Below, in pieces: positions 11,242 to 57,728 of a stretch of 64,000 nt of DNA. A program made the position numbers and the translations under genes. The notes beneath the pieces were generated by a model, which saw only the letters and a list, made by a program, of their open reading frames with translations, was not told where the DNA came from and ran no database searches. Each line of letters opens with the position of its first letter. Within the stretch, counting starts at the first letter, position 1. The stretch is from the NCBI GenBank assembly GCA_022538095.1, contig JAKYXN010000014.1, positions 1-64,000 on the forward strand. The letters are read 5' to 3'. This stretch comes from Puniceicoccaceae bacterium K14. GTDB taxonomy: Bacteria > Verrucomicrobiota > Verrucomicrobiia > Opitutales > Opitutaceae.

Positions 11242-12471
11242 ATGAAAATCGCACTCGCATACTCAGGTGGCTTGGACACTTCAGTCCTCGTTCGTTGGCT
11301 CAAAGATCATTACAATGCAGATGTCGTAACGTTCGCAGCAGACGTTGGCCAAGAAGAAGAATTGGACGGACTCGAAGAGAAGGCCAAGGCGACTGGCGCA
11401 GTGGAGCACCACACGCTCGATCTTGTCGACGAATTCGCGGCTGACTATATCTACCCGATGATGCGCGCTAACGCGATCTACGAAGGTCAGTACTTTTTGG
11501 GTACATCCATTGCGCGTCCTCTTATCGGAAAAGCGCACATTGACTTGGCTCGCAAGGTGGGAGCGAATGCATTGGCTCACGGAGCCACCGGCAAAGGAAA
11601 CGACCAAGTTCGTTTCGAGTTGGCCTATGCGGCCTTGGCACCCGATTTGAAAACGATTTCTCCTTGGAGATTGGATGTATTCCGTGAGGCCTTCCCGGGG
11701 CGCGCAGAGATGATCGATTATTGCCGTGAGAATAATATCAACGTGGAAGCATCTGCGTCTAAGCCATACTCAATGGATCGTAATCTATTGCACATTTCCT
11801 ACGAAGCAGGTATCTTGGAGGATCCTTGGTTTGATCCAACTGTGGCGGAAAACAAGGACATGTATAAGCTTTCTGTTGATCCAGAAGACGCTCCAAATGA
11901 AGCGGAATATGTGGAACTCGATTTCGAAAAAGGTGATTGCGTAGCGGTCAATGGAGAAGCTCTAAGCCCCGCAGGTGTTTTCAAGAAGCTCAATGCCCTT
12001 GCTGGAAAACATGGTATTGGTCGAGTGGATATCGTAGAAAACCGATTTGTTGGTATGAAGAGCCGCGGTGTATACGAAACTCCAGGCGGAACGATCTATA
12101 TGATGGGCCACAAGCAAGTGGAGTCTATTACAATGGATCGTGACCTAGAGCATTTACGCGATAGCTTGATTCCAAAGTACGCAGAGCTCGTTTACAACGG
12201 TTTCTGGTTCGCTCCAGAGCGGGAAGCTCTTCAAGCGCTTATCGATGATAGCCAAAAAACGGTGACTGGAACAGTTCGTCTCAAGCTCTACAAAGGCAAC
12301 GTGACGACAGTTGGACGTAAGTCTCCTTACTCGCTATACAATGAAGATATTGCTTCAATGGAAGGCGTGCAAAGCGACTACAATCCAAACGACGCTACCG
12401 GATTTATCCGTCTGCAAGGCCTCCGCTTGAGAGCTCGCTTCCATGCTCAAAAGGGCTTTATCGAGCAGTAA
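11242..12471 (+). CDS. argG: Argininosuccinate synthase
   Basis: A 409-residue enzyme of normal length. It has the N-terminal ATP pyrophosphatase motif [22 protein letters not shown], and the conserved [12 protein letters not shown]. It joins citrulline and aspartate, the last step encoded in this cluster; argH is not in the window. The 3' end (codons for residues about 381-409) is duplicated in decayed form near 25.2 kb. A strong terminator follows the gene. Confidence 0.96.
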
Positions 12472-12510
12472 ACAAAAAACTCTACTTCAGGAGGTTGTTT
12501 TAGAATTTCA

Positions 12511-12545
12511 AAGCCGTGTCCTCATTAAGAGGCACGGCTTTTTTG
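12511..12545 (+). terminator. Rho-independent terminator after argG
   Basis: AAGCCGTG and CCTC pair with GAGG and CACGGCTT across an ATTAA loop, with one bulged T. A T-run follows. A related hairpin with the same AAGCCG/CGGCTT base follows the argG remnant at 25306-25341. Confidence 0.9.
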
Positions 12546-12836
12546 TGTCGATCTACTAGAGGTACTTATTACTCAGTTACGAAGTTTTCCATCGAATTGA
12601 GTATTAGAGTAAAATTGGATGCACCCCTTTTATTGGAAGAGGGTTTGTTGTTGGGTGAGACTCTCCTGGCGAGAACAGGCGGGTTTTCGTGCGATAATTA
12701 GGTAAAAAAATAGCGAAACTTATTTGCCCCCTTCAAATGGCCTAAGAGTAAAGACTCTTTCGACCGAAAAGATTATAGTATGCCGGACGTATCCCCTAAT
12801 AGACAATTTTCTCAGGGCTTGTGAGTAAATGAGACC
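12546..12836. other. Non-coding gap after the arg terminator
   Basis: No convincing gene was found. One open frame runs through the terminator and lacks any family signal. The promoter of the porin operon is presumably here, but no clear consensus stands out. Confidence 0.4.
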
Positions 12837-18076: not shown

Positions 18077-18637
18077 TTAACTTATGAGGGCGAAGATTGC
18101 GAAGGTGGCGATCCCGAGGACTGTCGTTACCAAAGTAGCTCGTTTGAGCGGGGGCGTTTGCAATGCCATTACATAGCCGGAAACTAAAATCAATCCGAGG
18201 GCGATTGCTAGGAAGGCTGCGTAGACTTTGAACGCTGTGCCGCCTTTTGCCTTATGCAGCTGAACGAGGCTTCTGTACCACGTGGTTTCTTTTATGGTTA
18301 TGCTGGCGACGAGCGCGTTGTCCGTCGGTTCGAGAATCACGTCTTTTGACGATCCAGTCCATTCTAGGAGAAAGTGACTCCCATACTTTTTAACCTTCGG
18401 CTTTCCTTCGGGTGCTCTTAGCTCGCGTTTGTTTAGCTCTTGTTTAACTAGTGCTGTCAGAGAACCCAGGTCCGCTTGGAGGGGCTGGGTGAGTTGAATT
18501 TCATAGCCCTCGCTGTTATAGCTTCCTTTCTCGCCCCAGGTATAAAGGGCTCCTGTGACGATGTACATAACCACAGCCGGGAGGATGAATGCAGCAAGTA
18601 GAGCGTGAATGCTCATGAATAATCTTCGATCTTTCAT
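18077..18637 (-). CDS. PepSY-type membrane protein
   Basis: A 186-residue protein with a membrane segment at about residues 12-33 (AAFILPAVVMYIVTGALYTWG), an extracytoplasmic PepSY-like portion and two C-terminal hydrophobic segments (about 140-185). This matches small PepSY-associated TM proteins, relatives of which are found near iron or reductase systems. No partner reductase is present. It converges on the end of the hybrid kinase gene. The exact role is unknown. Confidence 0.65.
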   Translation of the reverse strand: MKDRRLFMSIHALLAAFILPAVVMYIVTGALYTWGEKGSYNSEGYEIQLTQPLQADLGSLTALVKQELNKRELRAPEGKPKVKKYGSHFLLEWTGSSKDVILEPTDNALVASITIKETTWYRSLVQLHKAKGGTAFKVYAAFLAIALGLILVSGYVMALQTPPLKRATLVTTVLGIATFAIFALIS

Positions 18638-18757
18638 ATCAGTTTGGTCGTTGTAAGGTCTCTAGAATCAATTAGTTGGGTATTGTTAATTTCCCATGCA
18701 TTTGTCGATCTGAATTAGGCTAACGGGAAATCTCGACGGTTACTTTTCGGCGCCTTT

Positions 18758-19327
18758 TCAGGACTTGGGGAGATGATTCTTCAGGATTTCGTAGAGCTCT
18801 GGGCGGTCTTTCTTGATTTCTTCCCTCGAAAGGCCTTCTAGGGAATGGGGGTATTTTAACCAAGCGCTCGTCTCGTGTATGAAGTAATCGGGCACACGAG
18901 TGGTTCGGTTGCGCTCTGGCTTGTAATAGGGGACTGCGATCCGAATGTCATGAGGCGTATTTAGGCGAGCTCTTGCCTTAAGATCATTGATGATGGCCTC
19001 CACCGACATGCCGCTGTCGAAAACGTCATCGACGATCAGCAAACTGTCTTCGTGCTGGACGTTCTTAACCAGATAGCTGAGGCCGTAAACTCGCACTTCG
19101 CGGTTTTGTTCGTCTATGCCTGATGAGTAGGAGGACGTCCGAATAGCGATATTGTCCGTCTCGACGCCGTGGTAGCTCAAGTACTCCTGGACTGCGATCC
19201 CGATCGGGGCGCCACCGCGCCAGATCGCGATCATGAAGGTGGGGCGAAAGCCGCTCTCCAGTACTTTCGCGGCCAGCTTCCAAGAATCCTCCAAAAGGCC
19301 TCCAGCAGTTAGAAAAAGCTTCTCCAT
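18758..19327 (-). CDS. Phosphoribosyltransferase, Hpt1-like (paralogue A)
   Basis: A 189-residue type I phosphoribosyltransferase, starting from the ATG at 19327. The frame is open to 19390, but the extra 21 residues have no family match and would overlap the divergent promoter. The PRPP-binding motif is LLIVDDVFDSGMS; WRGGAPIG is the N-terminal phosphate-binding loop. The nearest recognisable group is the hypoxanthine phosphoribosyltransferase-like proteins (COG2236), whose substrates are often unknown. It sits head to head with a paralogue; the two start codons are 68 bases apart and both share the layout ESGFRPTF-WRGG-VDDV-LxGLxxEEIK. Confidence 0.85.
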   Translation of the reverse strand: MEKLFLTAGGLLEDSWKLAAKVLESGFRPTFMIAIWRGGAPIGIAVQEYLSYHGVETDNIAIRTSSYSSGIDEQNREVRVYGLSYLVKNVQHEDSLLIVDDVFDSGMSVEAIINDLKARARLNTPHDIRIAVPYYKPERNRTTRVPDYFIHETSAWLKYPHSLEGLSREEIKKDRPELYEILKNHLPKS

Positions 19328-19395
19328 GAGTTTTTGAAATCGACGGATGAGCGAAAAGCCAATCACATTATTGATACGCAATTCGAACAATATTC

Positions 19396-19950
19396 ATGAA
19401 TAAGCATTTTCTAGACGAAGCAACCATCATTGAAGATTCTTTTCGCCTTGGTGTACAGATTTTCGAAAGCGGTTTTCGCCCGACCTTCATCGTCGGTCTC
19501 TGGCGTGGTGGCAGCTCTGTTGGAATTTACGTGCAAGAATGCCTGCAAGCTCTTGGCGTCGAAACCGATCATTTTTCTGTTCGTACCTCCTACCAAGGCC
19601 TGCCCGGTTACCAGGACATGATCGATTCTCCAGAGAACATCCGCGTCCATGGCACTCAGTATCTCATCGAAAATCTCAATGCGGAGGACCGCCTGCTTAT
19701 AGTCGACGATGTCTGCAGCTCTGGCCACAGTATCCGTGCCGTACAAAATCGTCTCCAAAAGAAGCTCAAGCGCAACTATCCAGCAGAGACTAAAACGGCG
19801 GTCCTGTGGCATCGCCCTCATTTCAAACGAGCCGATGTCCAGCCAAACTATTTTCTTCATACCACCGACGAATGGCTCGTCTTTCCTTACGAACTTAAAG
19901 GGCTCACGCCCGAAGAAATCAAGCGGCACAAACCTGAGGCGGTGGTGTGA
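19396..19950 (+). CDS. Phosphoribosyltransferase, Hpt1-like (paralogue B)
   Basis: A 184-residue paralogue of the divergent neighbour. It has LWRGGSSVG and the PRPP motif LLIVDDVCSSGHS. The C-terminal segment WLVFPYELKGLTPEEIKRHKPE is the one repeated in a fragment at 22012-22219. The substrate is unknown; a salvage or nucleotide-modifying role is possible. The gene ends GTG-TGA, and the fragment copy reads through at this point. Confidence 0.85.
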   Translation: MNKHFLDEATIIEDSFRLGVQIFESGFRPTFIVGLWRGGSSVGIYVQECLQALGVETDHFSVRTSYQGLPGYQDMIDSPENIRVHGTQYLIENLNAEDRLLIVDDVCSSGHSIRAVQNRLQKKLKRNYPAETKTAVLWHRPHFKRADVQPNYFLHTTDEWLVFPYELKGLTPEEIKRHKPEAVV

Positions 19951-20143
19951 GATTTGAAGAAATCAAGTATCCTCGAGATCTATAGGCCATGCTTAGAGGA
20001 TATATCACAATTTTTCCTAGATTGTATCTATAAAAAAGATACGTAGCGCAGTTTACCTAGTTTGAGAAAAGTGGAATTTTCAATGATCTTTGCCTGTTTC
20101 TTCTTTCTGTTTGGCAAAAAACTGGAAAATAAGCAGAGAGGAA

Positions 20144-20602
20144 TTAGTACCCCTCCTTCTTAGATGCGTCAGTTTCTACATAATGGACAGGTTGCTTTAT
20201 TTTGGATTCATGTTCATAATCCAGCTCGGTGACTTTAGATTCAGCCTTCATCGGATCATTTGAATCCAATTTGACTGTGGTGATGCTATCCCTTTCCGGA
20301 TAAATGTCGATTGTTTCCGAATATCCTATTGAGACGCCAGTGCGTCGACCAGTTAATTCTATTTTTGCTCCGATTGATTGTGTCTGCACTACCGTGGTTT
20401 CTCTATCAGTGGGCGTGACTTTTGTAGGGCCTATTTTAATCTTTGGTTTGGTCTCGTCTGCGTCTGTTCCGTCAACCGATTGTGGTTTGCTTACCTTTGT
20501 CCATGTAAGGCCTATTGTATTCAAATGACCATTGCTTCCTGTGTATCGAACTGCACAGCCGCTAAGTAAGATAGCGAGAATTATGGGTAGCAAATGCTTC
20601 AT
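20144..20602 (-). CDS. Putative lipoprotein, unknown function
   Basis: A 152-residue protein with an N-terminal signal and lipobox LLSGC (lipidation at Cys 16), so probably membrane-anchored. The remainder is polar and strand-rich (GAKIELTGRRTGVSIGYSE) with no family I recognise. It is last in a minus-strand group of three: its start is 5 bases after the stop of the 63-codon gene. Confidence 0.75.
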   Translation of the reverse strand: MKHLLPIILAILLSGCAVRYTGSNGHLNTIGLTWTKVSKPQSVDGTDADETKPKIKIGPTKVTPTDRETTVVQTQSIGAKIELTGRRTGVSIGYSETIDIYPERDSITTVKLDSNDPMKAESKVTELDYEHESKIKQPVHYVETDASKKEGY

Positions 20603-20607
20603 TCAGA

Positions 20608-20799
20608 TTAGTCGCTACTCTGTGCCCTTAAGAAAACCAAGATTGAGCTGGACGATTCACTTATGTTGTAGACTTCCCAGACACCATCGGCACTGAAGGA
20701 ATTTAACAGCTGGGAAAATTGTGTTCTCTTTTCTTCGCTTGATGAGAGTAAGTCGAAACTCCAACCCTGGATTGTTTCGATGTTGTAGTAGTAAGCCAT
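20608..20799 (-). CDS. Small protein of unknown function
   Basis: A 63-residue protein beginning MAYYYNIETIQGW and ending in a beta-like SSSSILVFLRAQ. It has no signal peptide or membrane segment. I believe it is real because it is tightly spaced between two lipoprotein genes on the same strand (39 bases after one, 5 before the other) and its composition is not shadow-like. No function is recognisable. Confidence 0.6.
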   Translation of the reverse strand: MAYYYNIETIQGWSFDLLSSSEEKRTQFSQLLNSFSADGVWEVYNISESSSSILVFLRAQSSD

Positions 20800-20838
20800 T
20801 TAATTTGGTTAGAGCGTGTCTTCCGAGGTTTGCTTGAG

Positions 20839-21768
20839 TTATTGATACAAGTGAGAATGTACCGAGTTTACTTCTGCTGTGGTCAAGTGAGGCAAAACTA
20901 CCAGCTTGAAATTGGATTGGGTGAAAGTGGTACCTTGAACATTGCTCTTGAACCATATAGCAAAGGTAGAGAATTCAGAGCTATTCATAGATTGAATCTT
21001 CTCTCGAATTTCTGTCTCTTGGTCCGCTTGTGCTTTTGTTCTTTCAAGGTTCGTTGCTCCCGTAACTGCTTCGTTCAGGGTTTGTTGAATTAGGGGTCGC
21101 GTGCTCAGAGCAATTGCAGCTTTGCCGGTGGCGAATCGAGTAGAGAGTCGAACTCCTTTGCCTGTATCATCTGGTATGTCACTATTCGCTATTCCCAAAT
21201 CAGCTGCGTTGGTTGCTTGGGAGTGATTCACAATTGAGATGTCGGCGTAGACAGAGTTTGCTTCTTTGCAGGATGTTTTGTTTAGAGGTATGACCGTGGC
21301 TTCTTTGCGATTGAACCCCAATGTGAAACTGGCTGGTTCGGAGGACCCTGCACCCGAGTTAATATCGATCCCCAATACAGATTTGGTACCGAAGTAGAGG
21401 TGTCCATTGTTACCTGTTTCATTCTGTTTGCTTGTTCCATTCTGTTTGCCTGTTCCGCTTGCCGCGTTGATTGCAGCTTGGCCTGTCGCAAACACTTGCT
21501 TGATCACCTGACCATCGAACCAGGTTAAATTAGAGTCCATCGCTCCGAAGACAGAGTGAGCTTCGCCATTGCTTTTGTTTGGCACTATTGCTACTTCTTC
21601 TCTTTCGACGGCTAAGGCAATTTTGGTCGGAACTTGGGCGGTTCCTGATACATCAAGTCCAATAGTTGTATTGGTTCCAAAATACAGGTGATTGGCACAC
21701 CCACTCAGAACTTGAGTGGATAGAAGTAAAGTGACCAAAATCGAGTTGCAGGAGGGATTCAATTTCAT
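20839..21768 (-). CDS. Putative lipoprotein with internal tandem duplication
   Basis: A 309-residue protein with a signal peptide and lipobox VLSGC (Cys 24). Two homologous units follow. Unit 1 starts at His 27 (HLYFGTNTTIGLD) and reaches FATGQAAI; unit 2 starts at His 123 (HLYFGTKSVLGID) and reaches FATGKAAI. Residues between the units are a low-complexity Gly/Asn/Gln/Thr linker. The C-terminal region (about 235-285) is helical and charged. The units look like beta-barrel or sandwich lobes, but I do not recognise the family. It is the first gene of the minus-strand trio. Confidence 0.75.
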   Translation of the reverse strand: MKLNPSCNSILVTLLLSTQVLSGCANHLYFGTNTTIGLDVSGTAQVPTKIALAVEREEVAIVPNKSNGEAHSVFGAMDSNLTWFDGQVIKQVFATGQAAINAASGTGKQNGTSKQNETGNNGHLYFGTKSVLGIDINSGAGSSEPASFTLGFNRKEATVIPLNKTSCKEANSVYADISIVNHSQATNAADLGIANSDIPDDTGKGVRLSTRFATGKAAIALSTRPLIQQTLNEAVTGATNLERTKAQADQETEIREKIQSMNSSEFSTFAIWFKSNVQGTTFTQSNFKLVVLPHLTTAEVNSVHSHLYQ

Positions 21769-22011
21769 TTGTTACAAGAGTTTTCCTACGATTGTGCAGG
21801 ATTAGATTCAGCATTGATTAGTCAGAAAGCACTTAATATGCCACTGGTAATGATTACGAATTAATAGGGTTATTGAAGTTAGTTTTAAGTATTTGTCCTG
21901 TTTTCGGAGATGCTGTCAAGTTGAGATCGAGGTTGATGTTATAGCGAGCGATGACCGGACCTCTGTGAAGGTATTTATTCAGATAAGGTGGCGACGTGCT
22001 TTTGCTGTTCA

Positions 22012-22219
22012 CAGAAGACGCTCAAACGCAACTACCCAACTCAGCCTAAAACGGCGGTCCTGTGGCACCGCCCTCATTTCAAGCGAGCCGACGTCTAGCC
22101 AAACTATTTTCTTCACATAACCGACGAATGGCTCGCCTTTCCCTACGAACTCAAAGACCTAACGCCCGAAGAGATCAAGCGGCACAAACCTGAGGCGGCG
22201 GTGGAAGGTTTGAAGAATT
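22012..22219 (+). pseudogene. 3'-end fragment of a phosphoribosyltransferase gene
   Basis: About 208 bases align without gaps to 19756-19963, the last third of the adjacent phosphoribosyltransferase gene. By hand count close to nine bases in ten match. In frame it reads QKTLKRNYP and PEEIKRHKPEAAVEGLKN. A TAG at 22096-22098 replaces a CAG codon, and the stop codon of the parent has become sense. No start or PRPP motif is present upstream, so it is a relic. Together with the intact copy it brackets the lipoprotein trio. Confidence 0.9.
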
Positions 22220-22409
22220 CCCAAATAGATACGTATCAGAATAATCTACTAAGGGCAGAATATGAATGGTATGGATCTAGTTCGGTTAAGACCTATTGCA
22301 ACGTTTACCAACCAATTAAATAAGTAAAGACACGTAAGCGCCTTGAGTAAGAAGGAAGTAGGATTTTTAGTTAAATAAGTTTCCCTGATCCTTTTGGTGC
22401 TATTTCCGT

Positions 22410-23156
22410 TCAGATTTCGATTACGAATGAAGCCTCGAAATTGAGGTTCGGGTCGTCGACATATGCTCGGGGGTTGGCGATGATTCTCGTGTTACCAATC
22501 CTGTAGTCTTGGCTTTCGTGTATGTGCCCGTGGATCCACAGAGCAGGTGAGTGCTCTTCGATGAATTCGTCTAAATGAGAGGTGTAGGCCACGCTTATTG
22601 GGTTCTCTTGTTTTTCTTTAGGAAGGGAACGGATAGAGGGTGCGTGGTGGCTTACTATGATCGATTTTTCGTTTTTAGTAGTCTCAAGAAAAGCCTTCAT
22701 AGCGTTGAGAGCTTGAGTATGGATTCTCTTTGTGTCTTGGGGGCTGAGTTTTTTGTAGGTAGTTGATGTTCGGATTCGTTTATAGTCATTCATCCGCTGA
22801 GCTTCGATTCCACCAAGCATAGGATTTCCGAAGAGGTTCAGATCCGTCCAAAGCGTACAATCGAAGAAGTGATACCCGTTGATGGGAACCGATTCGTTTT
22901 CGAGTATGTGGATGTTGGTTCCCTCGGCTTCAGTTTTGATCTTTTCTATAAGTCTGGGGTACTTCGAACCGTAGAACTCGTGATTCCCCATCACGTAAAT
23001 AACTGGGATATCTTGAGAGGCATTTTCTTTGATCCACTTGATTCCATTGAGTTTTGTGTGTACGTCACCCGCAAATACGAGCACGTCGGCGTCCACCTTG
23101 GGCAGTTGAAACTCTCCGAATTCAATATGTAAGTCGCTGAGTATGTGGACTCGCAT
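22410..23156 (-). CDS. Calcineurin-like metallophosphoesterase
   Basis: A 248-residue phosphoesterase with the complete metal-binding motif set: SDLHIEFGE (D, H), VFAGDVH, YVMGNHEF, VSHHAPS and HGHIHES. It probably hydrolyses a phosphoester such as a nucleotide, a 2',3'-cyclic phosphate or an RNA end; the substrate cannot be told from sequence. It is the last gene of a minus-strand set with two RlaP-type nucleotidyltransferases, 12 bases after the nearer one. This association suggests work on RNA or nucleotide ends. Confidence 0.88.
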   Translation of the reverse strand: MRVHILSDLHIEFGEFQLPKVDADVLVFAGDVHTKLNGIKWIKENASQDIPVIYVMGNHEFYGSKYPRLIEKIKTEAEGTNIHILENESVPINGYHFFDCTLWTDLNLFGNPMLGGIEAQRMNDYKRIRTSTTYKKLSPQDTKRIHTQALNAMKAFLETTKNEKSIIVSHHAPSIRSLPKEKQENPISVAYTSHLDEFIEEHSPALWIHGHIHESQDYRIGNTRIIANPRAYVDDPNLNFEASFVIEI

Positions 23157-23168
23157 TCGATGCTTGAG

Positions 23169-23939
23169 TTATGTGGAGGTCGTCCATTTTTTCAAAACCG
23201 CGTTTAGTGCACCCCAGCCGGGTTTGTTACCGGATCCGAACTTGTCTTGGATCTGTTCGAAGTGAGAAAGGCTGTCGTGTATCCATTGATTCATTATTTC
23301 AGGAGCCTCGATGATTTCGCCTTCGACTGCGTGAACCTTTTGAGCTTGGACTTCGGCGATGGCTGATAGGAGAGAGCTGTCTGCTATGTCGCTATCGAGC
23401 ATCGTTTGGAAGACTGTTGGAGGCATGCTGTTCTTGGCTTCAATCCAGTAGCAAGCAAAGAGGGGACGAAGGATGTAGAAGAGTTTCTTTATTTTGATCA
23501 TTCTTCCATTGAAGTGGTCTTTAGCGGTGCCTTTGGCCATGCTCATGTAGTGGTGGATGGCTTTGCGGGGCTTGAAGAATGTTGGGATAAGAGCAGTGAG
23601 TTCTTCTCGAAACCCATCTTGTTGCCAGTAGATGATTGGGCTATCGATCCATTCGTTGAGGGCGAGGTTACAGGTGGCAAAGAGGCGAAGTGTTTTGACG
23701 AGATCCCAACCTGCGAGGTCGAGATCATTCGGCAGCATCAAGTCGATATAGTCTTTCTTCTCCTGGAGTTCGAGGTACCAATCCTTTGGGTGTGTGTAAA
23801 TGAAACGCAGATCGTAGTCGCTATCTGGGGACTCAAAGCCCCACGCCCGACTACCGGACTCACAAGCAAAGAGGACTCGGATATTTCGTTCTTTTTCTAG
23901 GTTTTGGATAGTGTCGTCTATTTGGTGTTGGATGTTCAT
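23169..23939 (-). CDS. RlaP/YcgL-type nucleotidyltransferase (short form)
   Basis: A 256-residue DNA polymerase beta-superfamily nucleotidyltransferase. Its catalytic signature is ESGSRAWGFESPDSDYDLRF: a Gly-Ser helix turn followed by the metal-binding Asp pair. This matches the RlaP family (Pfam PF10127, COG3541), members of which occur in predicted RNA-repair loci beside RNA ligases. No ligase gene is nearby here. The metallophosphoesterase gene begins 12 bases downstream, suggesting cotranslation. The precise acceptor is unknown. Confidence 0.82.
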   Translation of the reverse strand: MNIQHQIDDTIQNLEKERNIRVLFACESGSRAWGFESPDSDYDLRFIYTHPKDWYLELQEKKDYIDLMLPNDLDLAGWDLVKTLRLFATCNLALNEWIDSPIIYWQQDGFREELTALIPTFFKPRKAIHHYMSMAKGTAKDHFNGRMIKIKKLFYILRPLFACYWIEAKNSMPPTVFQTMLDSDIADSSLLSAIAEVQAQKVHAVEGEIIEAPEIMNQWIHDSLSHFEQIQDKFGSGNKPGWGALNAVLKKWTTST

Positions 23940-24035
23940 ATTGTTGTGAGCAGAATAGTCTTTAGCTTTTTAGTCAGTAGCCGCTAAACGTCTATCCCGA
24001 AGGGTTCCTGAACCTGTGAAGGACAGACTAAACGC

Positions 24036-25127
24036 CTATACTTTCTCCAAGCTTGAGGTGATTTCTTTCAGGAGTTCTTCCGCTTTCGCTTTGTTTGGGG
24101 CTTCTGGGAGTATGCTATGTTGGTGGAGGGTTTTGAGTTCTTCGACTTTGGTTTCGGCTTTTTCTATAAGCGCGTCGTAAGTGAATTTGCCGGTGCGGAT
24201 ATCCATCAGGAATTGGAGGGCTTCGCCTTTGAAGCGGACAATGGGATAGCCGTTTCGCAGAATTGACTCACCGCTGAGAAGAAGGCGGAAGGTATGCATC
24301 ATGTTCTTGGCATCGTAGTCGATCTGGCCGCTTTCTTGTGTTTGCCAGCGTGCTTCGTTACGATTTTCTCGCCAAGTCCAATAGTTCTTGTGGTCTCGTA
24401 CTGCTCGTTCGAAAGCGTTTTGGTTGACGCTAAGCAGGCCTATGCAACGTTCCTTTTCGTCGTCTATGGGGATGGATTCGCAAACGACCTTTCCGCCTCG
24501 AATGACTCCACGGGCTTTGGAGCCATAGTGATAAATCCGATACATGCTTGGGCTGTGTTCCAAGGCGGCAACATGGCACTCGCTCAATGAGAAACCAGTG
24601 GATGCGATGGGTCTGGGACGATAGGGAAGCTCTGAGTTCTCTTCGTTTTCATTTGGGATGAGCCAACAAAAGTCCTCCAGGGTTGGTTGGGTTTTGGGTT
24701 GTGGATTGTTGACCCACTTGTTTTGGCCTCGGGCTTTTTTGATCTGGGCTTGGGCGTAGCCTACGTGAGATTCGTAGGCTTGTTTAGTGATGAAGATGGA
24801 GCGATTCTCGGCGAGTAGGTCGAAGCTGTGCGTACGGCGTTTTACGCACTCCTCTGGCATAAAAAGTAATTCGATGATATTGGGATTGGCAGTGAGGGCT
24901 AGCTCCAGAAATCGGGCGAGAGTGTAGTAAACGGTATCCCCTTTCGCGTCGGATACTTGAGTTGGCAATGGGTCGAGTGTGACCTGCGTTGCTTCGGGGA
25001 CGATGTAGATTCCTTTTAAATCTTCGTCGCTGTGAGGCAAAGCAGTGCCGTAAGCCTGGCTGCCTACAACCGACTCAAAAATCACCTTATCTGCATGTTG
25101 CGCTAGTAACTCTTCCAATGACCGCAT
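24036..25127 (-). CDS. RlaP-type nucleotidyltransferase (long form)
   Basis: A 363-residue relative of the preceding nucleotidyltransferase, with the signature SVVGSQAYGTALPHSDEDLKG. The longer middle region (residues about 130-260) probably recognises substrate. It is the first gene of a three-gene minus-strand set, 96 bases before the short form. Two different RlaP-type enzymes side by side suggest complementary acceptors or partners. It is not expected to be a tRNA-CCA enzyme; a separate cca-like gene is at 2.8-4.2 kb. Confidence 0.82.
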   Translation of the reverse strand: MRSLEELLAQHADKVIFESVVGSQAYGTALPHSDEDLKGIYIVPEATQVTLDPLPTQVSDAKGDTVYYTLARFLELALTANPNIIELLFMPEECVKRRTHSFDLLAENRSIFITKQAYESHVGYAQAQIKKARGQNKWVNNPQPKTQPTLEDFCWLIPNENEENSELPYRPRPIASTGFSLSECHVAALEHSPSMYRIYHYGSKARGVIRGGKVVCESIPIDDEKERCIGLLSVNQNAFERAVRDHKNYWTWRENRNEARWQTQESGQIDYDAKNMMHTFRLLLSGESILRNGYPIVRFKGEALQFLMDIRTGKFTYDALIEKAETKVEELKTLHQHSILPEAPNKAKAEELLKEITSSLEKV

Positions 25128-25196
25128 TCTGGGGGGATCATTGCGATTGTGGAGTTGAGTTCAAGACTTGAGGGCGGGTGTTCTGGGTGTGGTTGC

Positions 25197-25286
25197 AATT
25201 CGAGCGATGTGATCGGACTCATTCGCCTGCAAGGCCTCCACTTGCGAGTTTGCTTCCATGCACAACAGGAATTGATTGAGTAGTAA
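25197..25286 (+). pseudogene. Decayed copy of the argG 3' end
   Basis: Ninety bases align codon for codon with the last 30 codons of argG (12382-12471). By hand about three quarters of bases match, including an identical 13-base block CTGCAAGGCCTCC at 25227-25239. The frame reads IRLQGLHLRVCFHAQ where argG reads [15 protein letters not shown]. The final Gln codon has become TAG and the original TAA follows directly. No start or upstream argG sequence is present. An argG-like terminator follows. Confidence 0.9.
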
Positions 25287-25305
25287 GCTGGGTATTTTTA
25301 ATTTT

Positions 25306-25341
25306 AAAAGCCGCATTTTGATTTAGAAATGCGGCTTTTTT
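25306..25341 (+). terminator. Hairpin terminator after the argG remnant
   Basis: AAAAGCCGCATTT pairs with the near-complement GAAATGCGGCTTTT around a short loop, followed by T residues. On the minus strand it could also end transcription of the nptA-like operon, whose last stop lies at 25369. Its base sequence resembles the argG terminator at 12511-12545. Confidence 0.85.
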
Positions 25342-25368
25342 GTTGAACAAATTAGAGGAGGTGCCGGT

Positions 25369-27137: not shown

Positions 27138-27812
27138 TTATTCGGCAACAATCTCGTCGGCTGTTGCTGGCATTGTAGCCTTTAACTGGTTTGCTTTTTG
27201 TGCCCAGAGTGTGCGTTGATCGCCAGCTAGGATTTCGTCGAGTTGTGCACTGGCTTCGATGGTATCGCCGTTTTTGAGAGCGATTATTGCGAGGCGATAT
27301 TTGGCTTCGAGTTGGCTAGAGTTGTTTTCTTCGAGTGCGAGCGATTGGAAAATCGTTTTTGCTTCTGATTCTTTGTCGAGAGCTAGAAGACTCATCGCTT
27401 GGCCGATTTGAGACGCTTGCTTAACGGATTCTTTAGTGGAGTCACTCGCTTTTTCGTAAAGTGAAACGGCTTCTTGGAATTTCTCGTCGGTGTAGGCTTT
27501 GTCTGCCAATTCCTTAAACGCTAGTCCGCTAAGCGGGTGGCCAGATTCTTTCTCAGCCCACTCAAGGAGCTTCGCGTCGTCAGAACTCGCTTCTGCGTAA
27601 GCAGCTTGCTTGTCCTCTTCGGCTTTTTGGCCCATCATGGTGATGAACTGGTAGCCGAGAAAAACTACGAAAACGGCAACTATCGCTAATATGATTTGTT
27701 TGCCGTACTTTGACCAAAAAATGGAAAGGTTTGCTTCGATATCGGCAATCTCCGTTGTTTCGGGGATTACGTTACGTTCGTCGCTTTTGGAAGGTTTGCT
27801 CTTGTTGGCCAT
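27138..27812 (-). CDS. YfgM-like membrane-anchored TPR protein
   Basis: A 224-residue protein, taking the ATG at 27812 (MANKSKPSK). A frame extension to 27881 has no family character. A single membrane segment lies at about residues 38-60 (IILAIVAVFVVFLGYQFI). TPR-like helical hairpins follow through the periplasmic part (FQEAVSLYEKASD, EAKTIFQSLALEE, LEAKYRLAIIALKNGD). This matches the YfgM/ancillary SecYEG translocon layout. The role is inferred from architecture only. Confidence 0.75.
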   Translation of the reverse strand: MANKSKPSKSDERNVIPETTEIADIEANLSIFWSKYGKQIILAIVAVFVVFLGYQFITMMGQKAEEDKQAAYAEASSDDAKLLEWAEKESGHPLSGLAFKELADKAYTDEKFQEAVSLYEKASDSTKESVKQASQIGQAMSLLALDKESEAKTIFQSLALEENNSSQLEAKYRLAIIALKNGDTIEASAQLDEILAGDQRTLWAQKANQLKATMPATADEIVAE

Positions 27813-27919
27813 GATTGGGTAGGAGTGCAGTAATTTTGGAAAAAGGCTGAGTGAACCTTTTTTTTTCACAAGATCGAGCATTTATTGCATTGATCGGTGT
27901 AAGTAATCGATCTTTCTAC

Positions 27920-52564: not shown

Positions 52565-52581
52565 GATTGTTGGTATTGCAA

Positions 52582-52614
52582 GGAAAAGGACGACCGGTCG
52601 GGTCGTCCTTTTCC
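52582..52614 (-). terminator. Terminator after the giant secreted-protein gene
   Basis: GGAAAAGGACGACC and GGTCGTCCTTTTCC form a 14-base perfect stem with a 5-base loop. It lies 23 bases past the stop of the minus-strand gene. A 25-base core is identical to the terminator after icd. Confidence 0.88.
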
Positions 52615-52636
52615 TAATAAGTATTTATTTTCCTAT

Positions 52637-57697: not shown

Positions 57698-57728
57698 CAA
57701 AAAAAGGACGACCGGTCGGGTCGTCCTT
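57698..57728 (-). terminator. Terminator after icd
   Basis: AAGGACGACC and GGTCGTCCTT (57704-57728) form a 10-base stem, with the T-run on the minus strand. It lies 27 bases past the icd stop. Its 25-base core is identical to 52586-52610. Confidence 0.9.

Follow-up and report, generated by a model that had tools for sequence, protein, structure and literature searches.

How can a block of genes settle at the end of a resident gene and leave that gene working? The question is raised by one locus in a 5.72-Mb draft genome of 358 contigs (G000), of which we analysed a stretch of 64,000 bases, hereafter the window (C54:1-64000). In the window, an intact phosphoribosyltransferase (PRT) gene is followed by three small genes and then by a decayed copy of its own tail. 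A gene block beside a duplicated gene tail is most likely an ordinary insertion scar, in which the end of the neighbour was duplicated and the neighbour was left working. The PRT scar itself is real and roughly datable, and most likely of a known kind.

A gene tail and its decayed copy

The PRT gene lies at 19396-19950 on the plus strand and is recognised by PF00156 (E 8e-10). Its last 195 nt, stop codon included, form together with the next 14 nt a first repeat copy, X (19756-19964, plus strand), and sequence comparison finds a second copy, X', at 22012-22220 on the same strand. The two match without gaps at 182 of 209 bases (87%; blastn E ~1e-67), so that the ungapped repeat of nearly nine bases in ten proposed by the original prediction is real. 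Within the window, the next-best ungapped 209-base match reaches 79 identities on the plus strand; on the reverse strand it reaches 89 and falls in the partner PRT gene. With runners-up as low as these, a chance origin of the repeat is excluded. The locus reads A-X-V-X'-B, where V is the 2.05 kb between the copies; its borders are sharp, X is under selection and X' is decaying. Two further predicted features of the fragment were confirmed: it carries an in-frame TAG (22096-22098) where the parent has CAG (19840-19842), and the parent stop TGA (19948-19950) has become GAA, the reading frame continuing past it. X' has no start codon; it is the upstream copy, X, that completes the working gene.

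Substitutions separate the living copy from the dead one. Taking the genes of three Pelagicoccus-genus genomes as outgroup, we polarised the 23 differences found in the 192 coding nt upstream of the stop. Changes at first, second and third codon positions number 0, 1 and 8 on the intact branch and 4, 4 and 5 on the fragment branch, with one ambiguous. The intact tail is under purifying selection and X' has decayed; from these counts, the fragment has therefore lacked a function over a large part of the time since the copies separated.

The X/X' pair is nested within a second repeat, made from the tail of argG. Here, 12381-12471 recurs at 25196-25286 (91 nt, 76%) and a terminator-like part recurs as well (12493-12546 with 25290-25343; 54 nt, 70%), which gives two outer copies on the plus strand, one at 12381-12546 and a decayed one at 25196-25343. 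Over 60 alignable nt and with eight outgroups, changes by codon position are 1, 0 and 3 on the intact argG branch and 3, 5 and 2 on the fragment branch (one ambiguous). The fragment branch has thus changed at 10 of 60 sites for argG and at 13 of 192 for PRT, which, with the nesting, upholds the earlier view that the PRT scar is the younger: the argG event came first and the PRT event followed. A third case, in Paraglaciecola marina (see below), gives 1, 0 and 12 against 6, 10 and 11, with seven ambiguous and ten outgroup loci. When the three cases are pooled, third positions account for 23 of 26 intact-branch and 18 of 50 fragment-branch changes (Fisher p 1e-5).

The closest genome by argG among the 57 searched (G011, 91% at the protein level) has argG directly followed by a relative (41% identical) of 27138-27881, and then by relatives of 30069 and 30940. 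Since argG there directly adjoins the relative of 27138-27881, 14.6 kb of the window, including the argG-tail copy, are extra with respect to that genome. Part of this stretch, beyond the PRT fragment, is occupied on the minus strand by a metallophosphoesterase gene and two RlaP-type nucleotidyltransferase genes (22410-25127; PF00149 and PF10127). The two RlaP-type genes differ in length and the metallophosphoesterase gene adjoins them; in another genome (G003, L266), RlaP-like sequences likewise adjoin a phosphoesterase relative.

The bracketed genes and the relatives of the PRT gene

The segment between the copies holds three minus-strand ORFs, of 309 aa (20839-21768), 63 aa (20608-20799) and 152 aa (20144-20602). 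All three had been described as lipoprotein-type genes. This stands for the longest and the 152-aa ORF, which have a signal ending in ..LSGC, and falls for the 63-aa ORF, where such a signal is absent; the assignments were made by eye rather than with a signal-peptide program. The 309-aa ORF is an orphan with an internal duplication, HLYFGT...G[LI]D, also seen by eye.

None of the three ORFs has a significant family match in Pfam, NCBIfam or PHROGs, and none is recognised by these as a restriction-modification gene. The 309-aa protein matches only its own genome, both among 252 family genomes (1/252) and among 387 phylum genomes (1/387). Searches against plasmids (threshold 1e-5) and phages (E 1) gave no match for it, and a viral-contig scan gave no relative; NCBIfam and PHROGs give nothing for it up to E 0.1, and Pfam gives a weak PF21340 (E 0.43). 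For the 63-aa ORF, searches of Pfam (to E 1) and of NCBIfam and PHROGs (to E 0.1) gave nothing. The 152-aa ORF has weak matches to PHROG 417 (E 0.03) and PF24653 (E 0.089) and, besides its own genome, one weak partial match in the 252 family genomes (E 5e-4, residues 1-53). DNA comparison found no second copy of the inserted segment in its own genome.

In base composition, the two flanks of the segment resemble each other: GC at third codon positions (GC3) is 53.5% in the PRT gene and 54-57% in the metallophosphoesterase and two RlaP-type genes on the far side, as against 39, 44 and (63-aa ORF) 55% in the bracketed ORFs. Two flanks that are alike, around a middle that mostly differs from them, agree with an insertion into formerly continuous sequence. 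For 1006 ORFs of the genome, GC3 has a mean of 47% (sd 6), with 43.5% at the 28th percentile and 55% at the 92nd. The values of the inserted genes are ordinary for this genome and compatible with a native as well as a foreign origin.

The PRT gene has a partner, transcribed divergently (18758-19390, minus strand; PF00156). Both genes fall under all NCBIfam cut-offs reported for them, and no library used names their exact substrates. In the window's family, to which Pelagicoccus belongs, the PRT gene has matches in 6 of 252 genomes, its own included. A scan of public genome contigs gave 205 PRT relatives, of which we kept the best 80; judged by title, most of these are Gammaproteobacteria. In 79 of these 80 loci a second PRT gene divergently adjoins the first; in the lone exception (L101), 658 bases separate the start of the gene from the end of its contig. 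The divergent pair (18758-19950 in the window; L051-L130) is thus kept together, among the best 80 of 205, in Gammaproteobacteria, Desulfobulbaceae and a few Verrucomicrobiota.

Four further loci bring the set to 84, two of the four resembling records among the 80; flanks reach at most about 10 kb and often less. Within these limits, the 84 loci hold no second copy or fragment of the window's PRT gene, and none links the PRT pair to relatives of the inserted genes or of the metallophosphoesterase and RlaP genes. Three Pelagicoccus-genus genomes (G018, G215 and G216) have one PRT copy each, to which the window gene is 91-92% identical; it lies in other neighbourhoods, and by eye the downstream sequences differ even among the three. 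Because no relative among the family genomes or the 84 loci shows this neighbourhood with its site empty, we infer the insertion, with V as the inserted part, and its route of entry.

Similar scars in this genome and elsewhere

Is this locus exceptional? We scanned 1,714,018 bases of the genome (41 pieces, 30% of the total) for repeats in which an ORF of at least 90 aa holds one copy while the other copy lies outside any such ORF. Of 15 such repeats, 6 involve gene tails, 3 gene heads and 6 internal parts of genes; the internal ones were set aside, as were 3 in the 80 public loci and 1 in the family loci. Repeat lengths differ from gene to gene, between 69 and 308 bp, and some of the repeats are at gene heads; a further 0.41 Mb of the same genome added no head or tail to the set.

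Where an insertion duplicates the end of a gene, it can leave tails only downstream and heads only upstream of the parent, and this predicts a side for each remnant. With copies at least 1 kb apart, a cut that was set after the repeats had been seen, there are five tails (PRT, argG, C22, C98 and C8), all downstream, and three heads, of which two are upstream (C3 and C65) and one is downstream (C22, 105871, beginning 57 nt inside the ORF). The predicted side is thus taken by 7 of 8 (two-sided p 0.07), or by 7 of all 9 heads and tails (p 0.18).

As controls, 1.23 Mb in the 80 public loci (best 80 of 205) gave ten heads or tails, nine of them with copies less than 1 kb apart and one, in Paraglaciecola marina (L057), at 1 kb or more; seven lie on the predicted side (one inverted) and three on the other. 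With 7 of 10 control cases on the predicted side, orientation does not set this genome apart. The family loci (0.178 Mb) gave one head, inverted and on the non-predicted side (G055), and 0.46 Mb of G018, in stretches that overlap part of the family loci, gave neither head nor tail. The excess of scars over controls is suggestive only, the control pieces being short and including the PRT locus by design.

The Paraglaciecola marina remnant is the only tail remnant at the 84 loci, and it belongs to the partner PRT gene. It is 353 bp long, 86% identical and 4.2 kb downstream, so that two ORFs, of 978 and 177 aa, are bracketed; it has a one-base deletion and, as judged by eye, contains an in-frame TAG. 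The same type of scar has thus arisen independently there. A recombination hotspot specific to our locus is therefore not supported: comparable scars occur elsewhere in the genome, on further contigs, and another species carries one at its partner PRT gene.

Other repeats were noticed in passing. On another contig (L162, G000:C33), in 18292-19738, a tyrosine-integrase match stands beside repeats spaced ~192 bp apart outside any ORF, which might be an integron-like array. In the window, an exact 27-bp direct repeat (52584-52610 and 57702-57728) flanks an ORF of 1638 aa, and a 35-bp near-palindrome lies at 52581-52615.

How the block may have entered

We favour, with somewhat better than even confidence, a reading in which a ~2.05-kb piece with three small genes was inserted where the PRT gene ends, along with a duplicate of the gene's last 209 bp, likely through one crossover. 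Insertion at a gene end, as first proposed, is the best-supported reading, given the sharp borders, the decayed X' and the selected X. The donor would have been DNA of a related strain in which a PRT tail was joined to the three-gene block, and a single homologous crossover within the PRT tail would have brought it in. The upstream tail copy would then complete the PRT gene, and the downstream copy, without a start, would decay. ComEC is present in the genome. No Ku was found in it (97% complete) by a search that did find Ku in a B. subtilis control, and Ku end joining is therefore unlikely.

Tandem duplications are common in bacteria. A duplication either of the whole gene or of a segment broken once within the gene, followed by a deletion that spared the tail of the second copy, is the strongest competitor, and we consider it unlikely. 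Another contig of the same genome, C22, does hold a tail copy followed by the intact next gene, with a remnant of that gene between the copies, the pattern expected of a tandem segment; a duplicated segment with a break inside the gene is the better reading of that scar. At the PRT gene, the borders argue otherwise. Similarity between X and X' ends ~14 bases beyond the stop codon and at the left end of the fragment. To the left, the first 360 nt of the gene, its first two thirds, leave no significant trace in the 312 nt before X' (local alignment score reached by 18 of 300 shuffles); to the right, the score between the sequences following X and X' was reached by 25 of 300 shuffles; and the inserted segment has no significant trace in the 1.8 kb beyond the fragment (68 of 100). 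Since the tails have kept 87% identity, any homologous flanks ought still to be recognisable, so that a simple tandem duplication is not what remains here. A 209-bp direct repeat with sharp borders fits instead what is expected of the flanks of a long target duplication. At argG, the corresponding border scores were reached by 259 and 146 of 300 shuffles, and homology past that fragment is likewise not significant. A full second gene in the fragment's place, which the original prediction had named as the sign of duplication and decay, was seen at none of the 84 loci of relatives, within flanks of at most about 10 kb and often less. Lastly, tandem decay predicts tails upstream as often as downstream, and all five tails at 1 kb or more lie downstream, although 3 of the 10 control cases are on the opposite side.

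A second alternative, displacement, is close to our preferred insertion and differs from it mainly in the origin of the tail and in a second crossover. Here, incoming DNA with an already diverged PRT tail would be joined through two crossovers, one homologous and the other illegitimate, and the old host tail would survive as the fragment, much as proposed for effector genes of Vibrio cholerae (PMC5361080). ComEC would serve this route as well, and PRT and Paraglaciecola show a larger third-position difference than decay since birth predicts. Because third positions are probably saturated among the outgroups, we also fitted a model of total third-position differences, under six settings (two values of one assumed rate by three of another). 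By this model, the PRT fragment is estimated to have been non-functional for 0.40-0.48 of its time as a separate copy (95% intervals 0.10-1.00 over settings), the argG fragment for 0.95-1.00 (0.28-1.00) and the Paraglaciecola fragment for 0.40-0.45 (0.15-0.95). All three cases reject, under all six settings, a fragment that was never dead; one dead from birth is rejected for Paraglaciecola only (LR 4.3-6.9), PRT and argG being compatible with it. The PRT interval thus reaches 1.0 and the argG estimate is close to it, and we regard displacement as improbable. The PRT tails may nevertheless have been slightly different alleles when they were brought together, and at the Paraglaciecola scar allele differences before the event are likely. 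Tails that possibly differed as alleles point to recombination with a related strain rather than to pure copying in place.

Some mobile elements, of the phage e14/icd type, carry a replacement tail for the 3' end of their target gene. Such site-specific integration at the PRT 3' end would lay out the tail repeats as observed, with the fragment downstream, and the genome has 16 tyrosine-integrase matches; it is nonetheless very improbable, with no integrase among the inserted genes, no PF00589 match on C54, an element that would measure only 2.26 kb, and other scars that differ in gene and repeat length, include gene heads and give no sign of a single conserved attachment core.

An insertion with end duplication has known counterparts, as far as the relevant passages of the sources describe them. 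In Helicobacter pylori, insertions with long target duplications were reported by Nobusato et al. 2000 (as cited in PMC1643837, PMC3031569 and PMC4978471), and the duplications are called long and variable in PMC3031569. As at PRT, the inserted genes lie between long direct repeats; there, however, they are frequently restriction-modification genes and were recognised by comparing two strains, whereas the PRT block holds three genes without a significant family match and has no empty site to be compared with. Plasmid integrations at lacZ of E. coli, described in part of PMC3240628, also duplicate part of a gene end around the inserted DNA (109-950 bp) and are ascribed to a single crossing-over with a circle; they involve a laboratory plasmid with cloned homology and yield Lac- clones, whereas the PRT gene stays intact. 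For the T6SS clusters of Vibrio cholerae, the corresponding section of PMC5361080 proposes an insertion that displaces the old 3' end of an effector gene downstream, a similar shift, although modules of different effector types are exchanged there and both PRT tails come from one kind of enzyme gene. Finally, transposed genes of Arabidopsis are flanked by direct repeats, often genic, much as the inserted trio is, in what PMC2869330 says of them; this is a plant, with other repair machinery, and one proposed route there is circle excision and reinsertion.

What this locus adds is the presence side by side of two nested scars of different age, together with an independent parallel at the partner gene in another species. 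From the direction and relative age of gene-end scars one can read the way in which blocks came into a locus and their order of arrival, and such scars explain how DNA can enter a gene without breaking it. It would be a long shot to claim that a Ku-independent process adds gene blocks across this genome by duplicating gene ends (~4 detectable scars per Mb), that insertions into genes are thereby made harmless and that such scars form a general, underused record of the order of acquisition. If a larger survey confirmed the excess over controls, then in this bacterium, probably a marine relative of Pelagicoccus and one in which no Ku was found, the process would be open to study.
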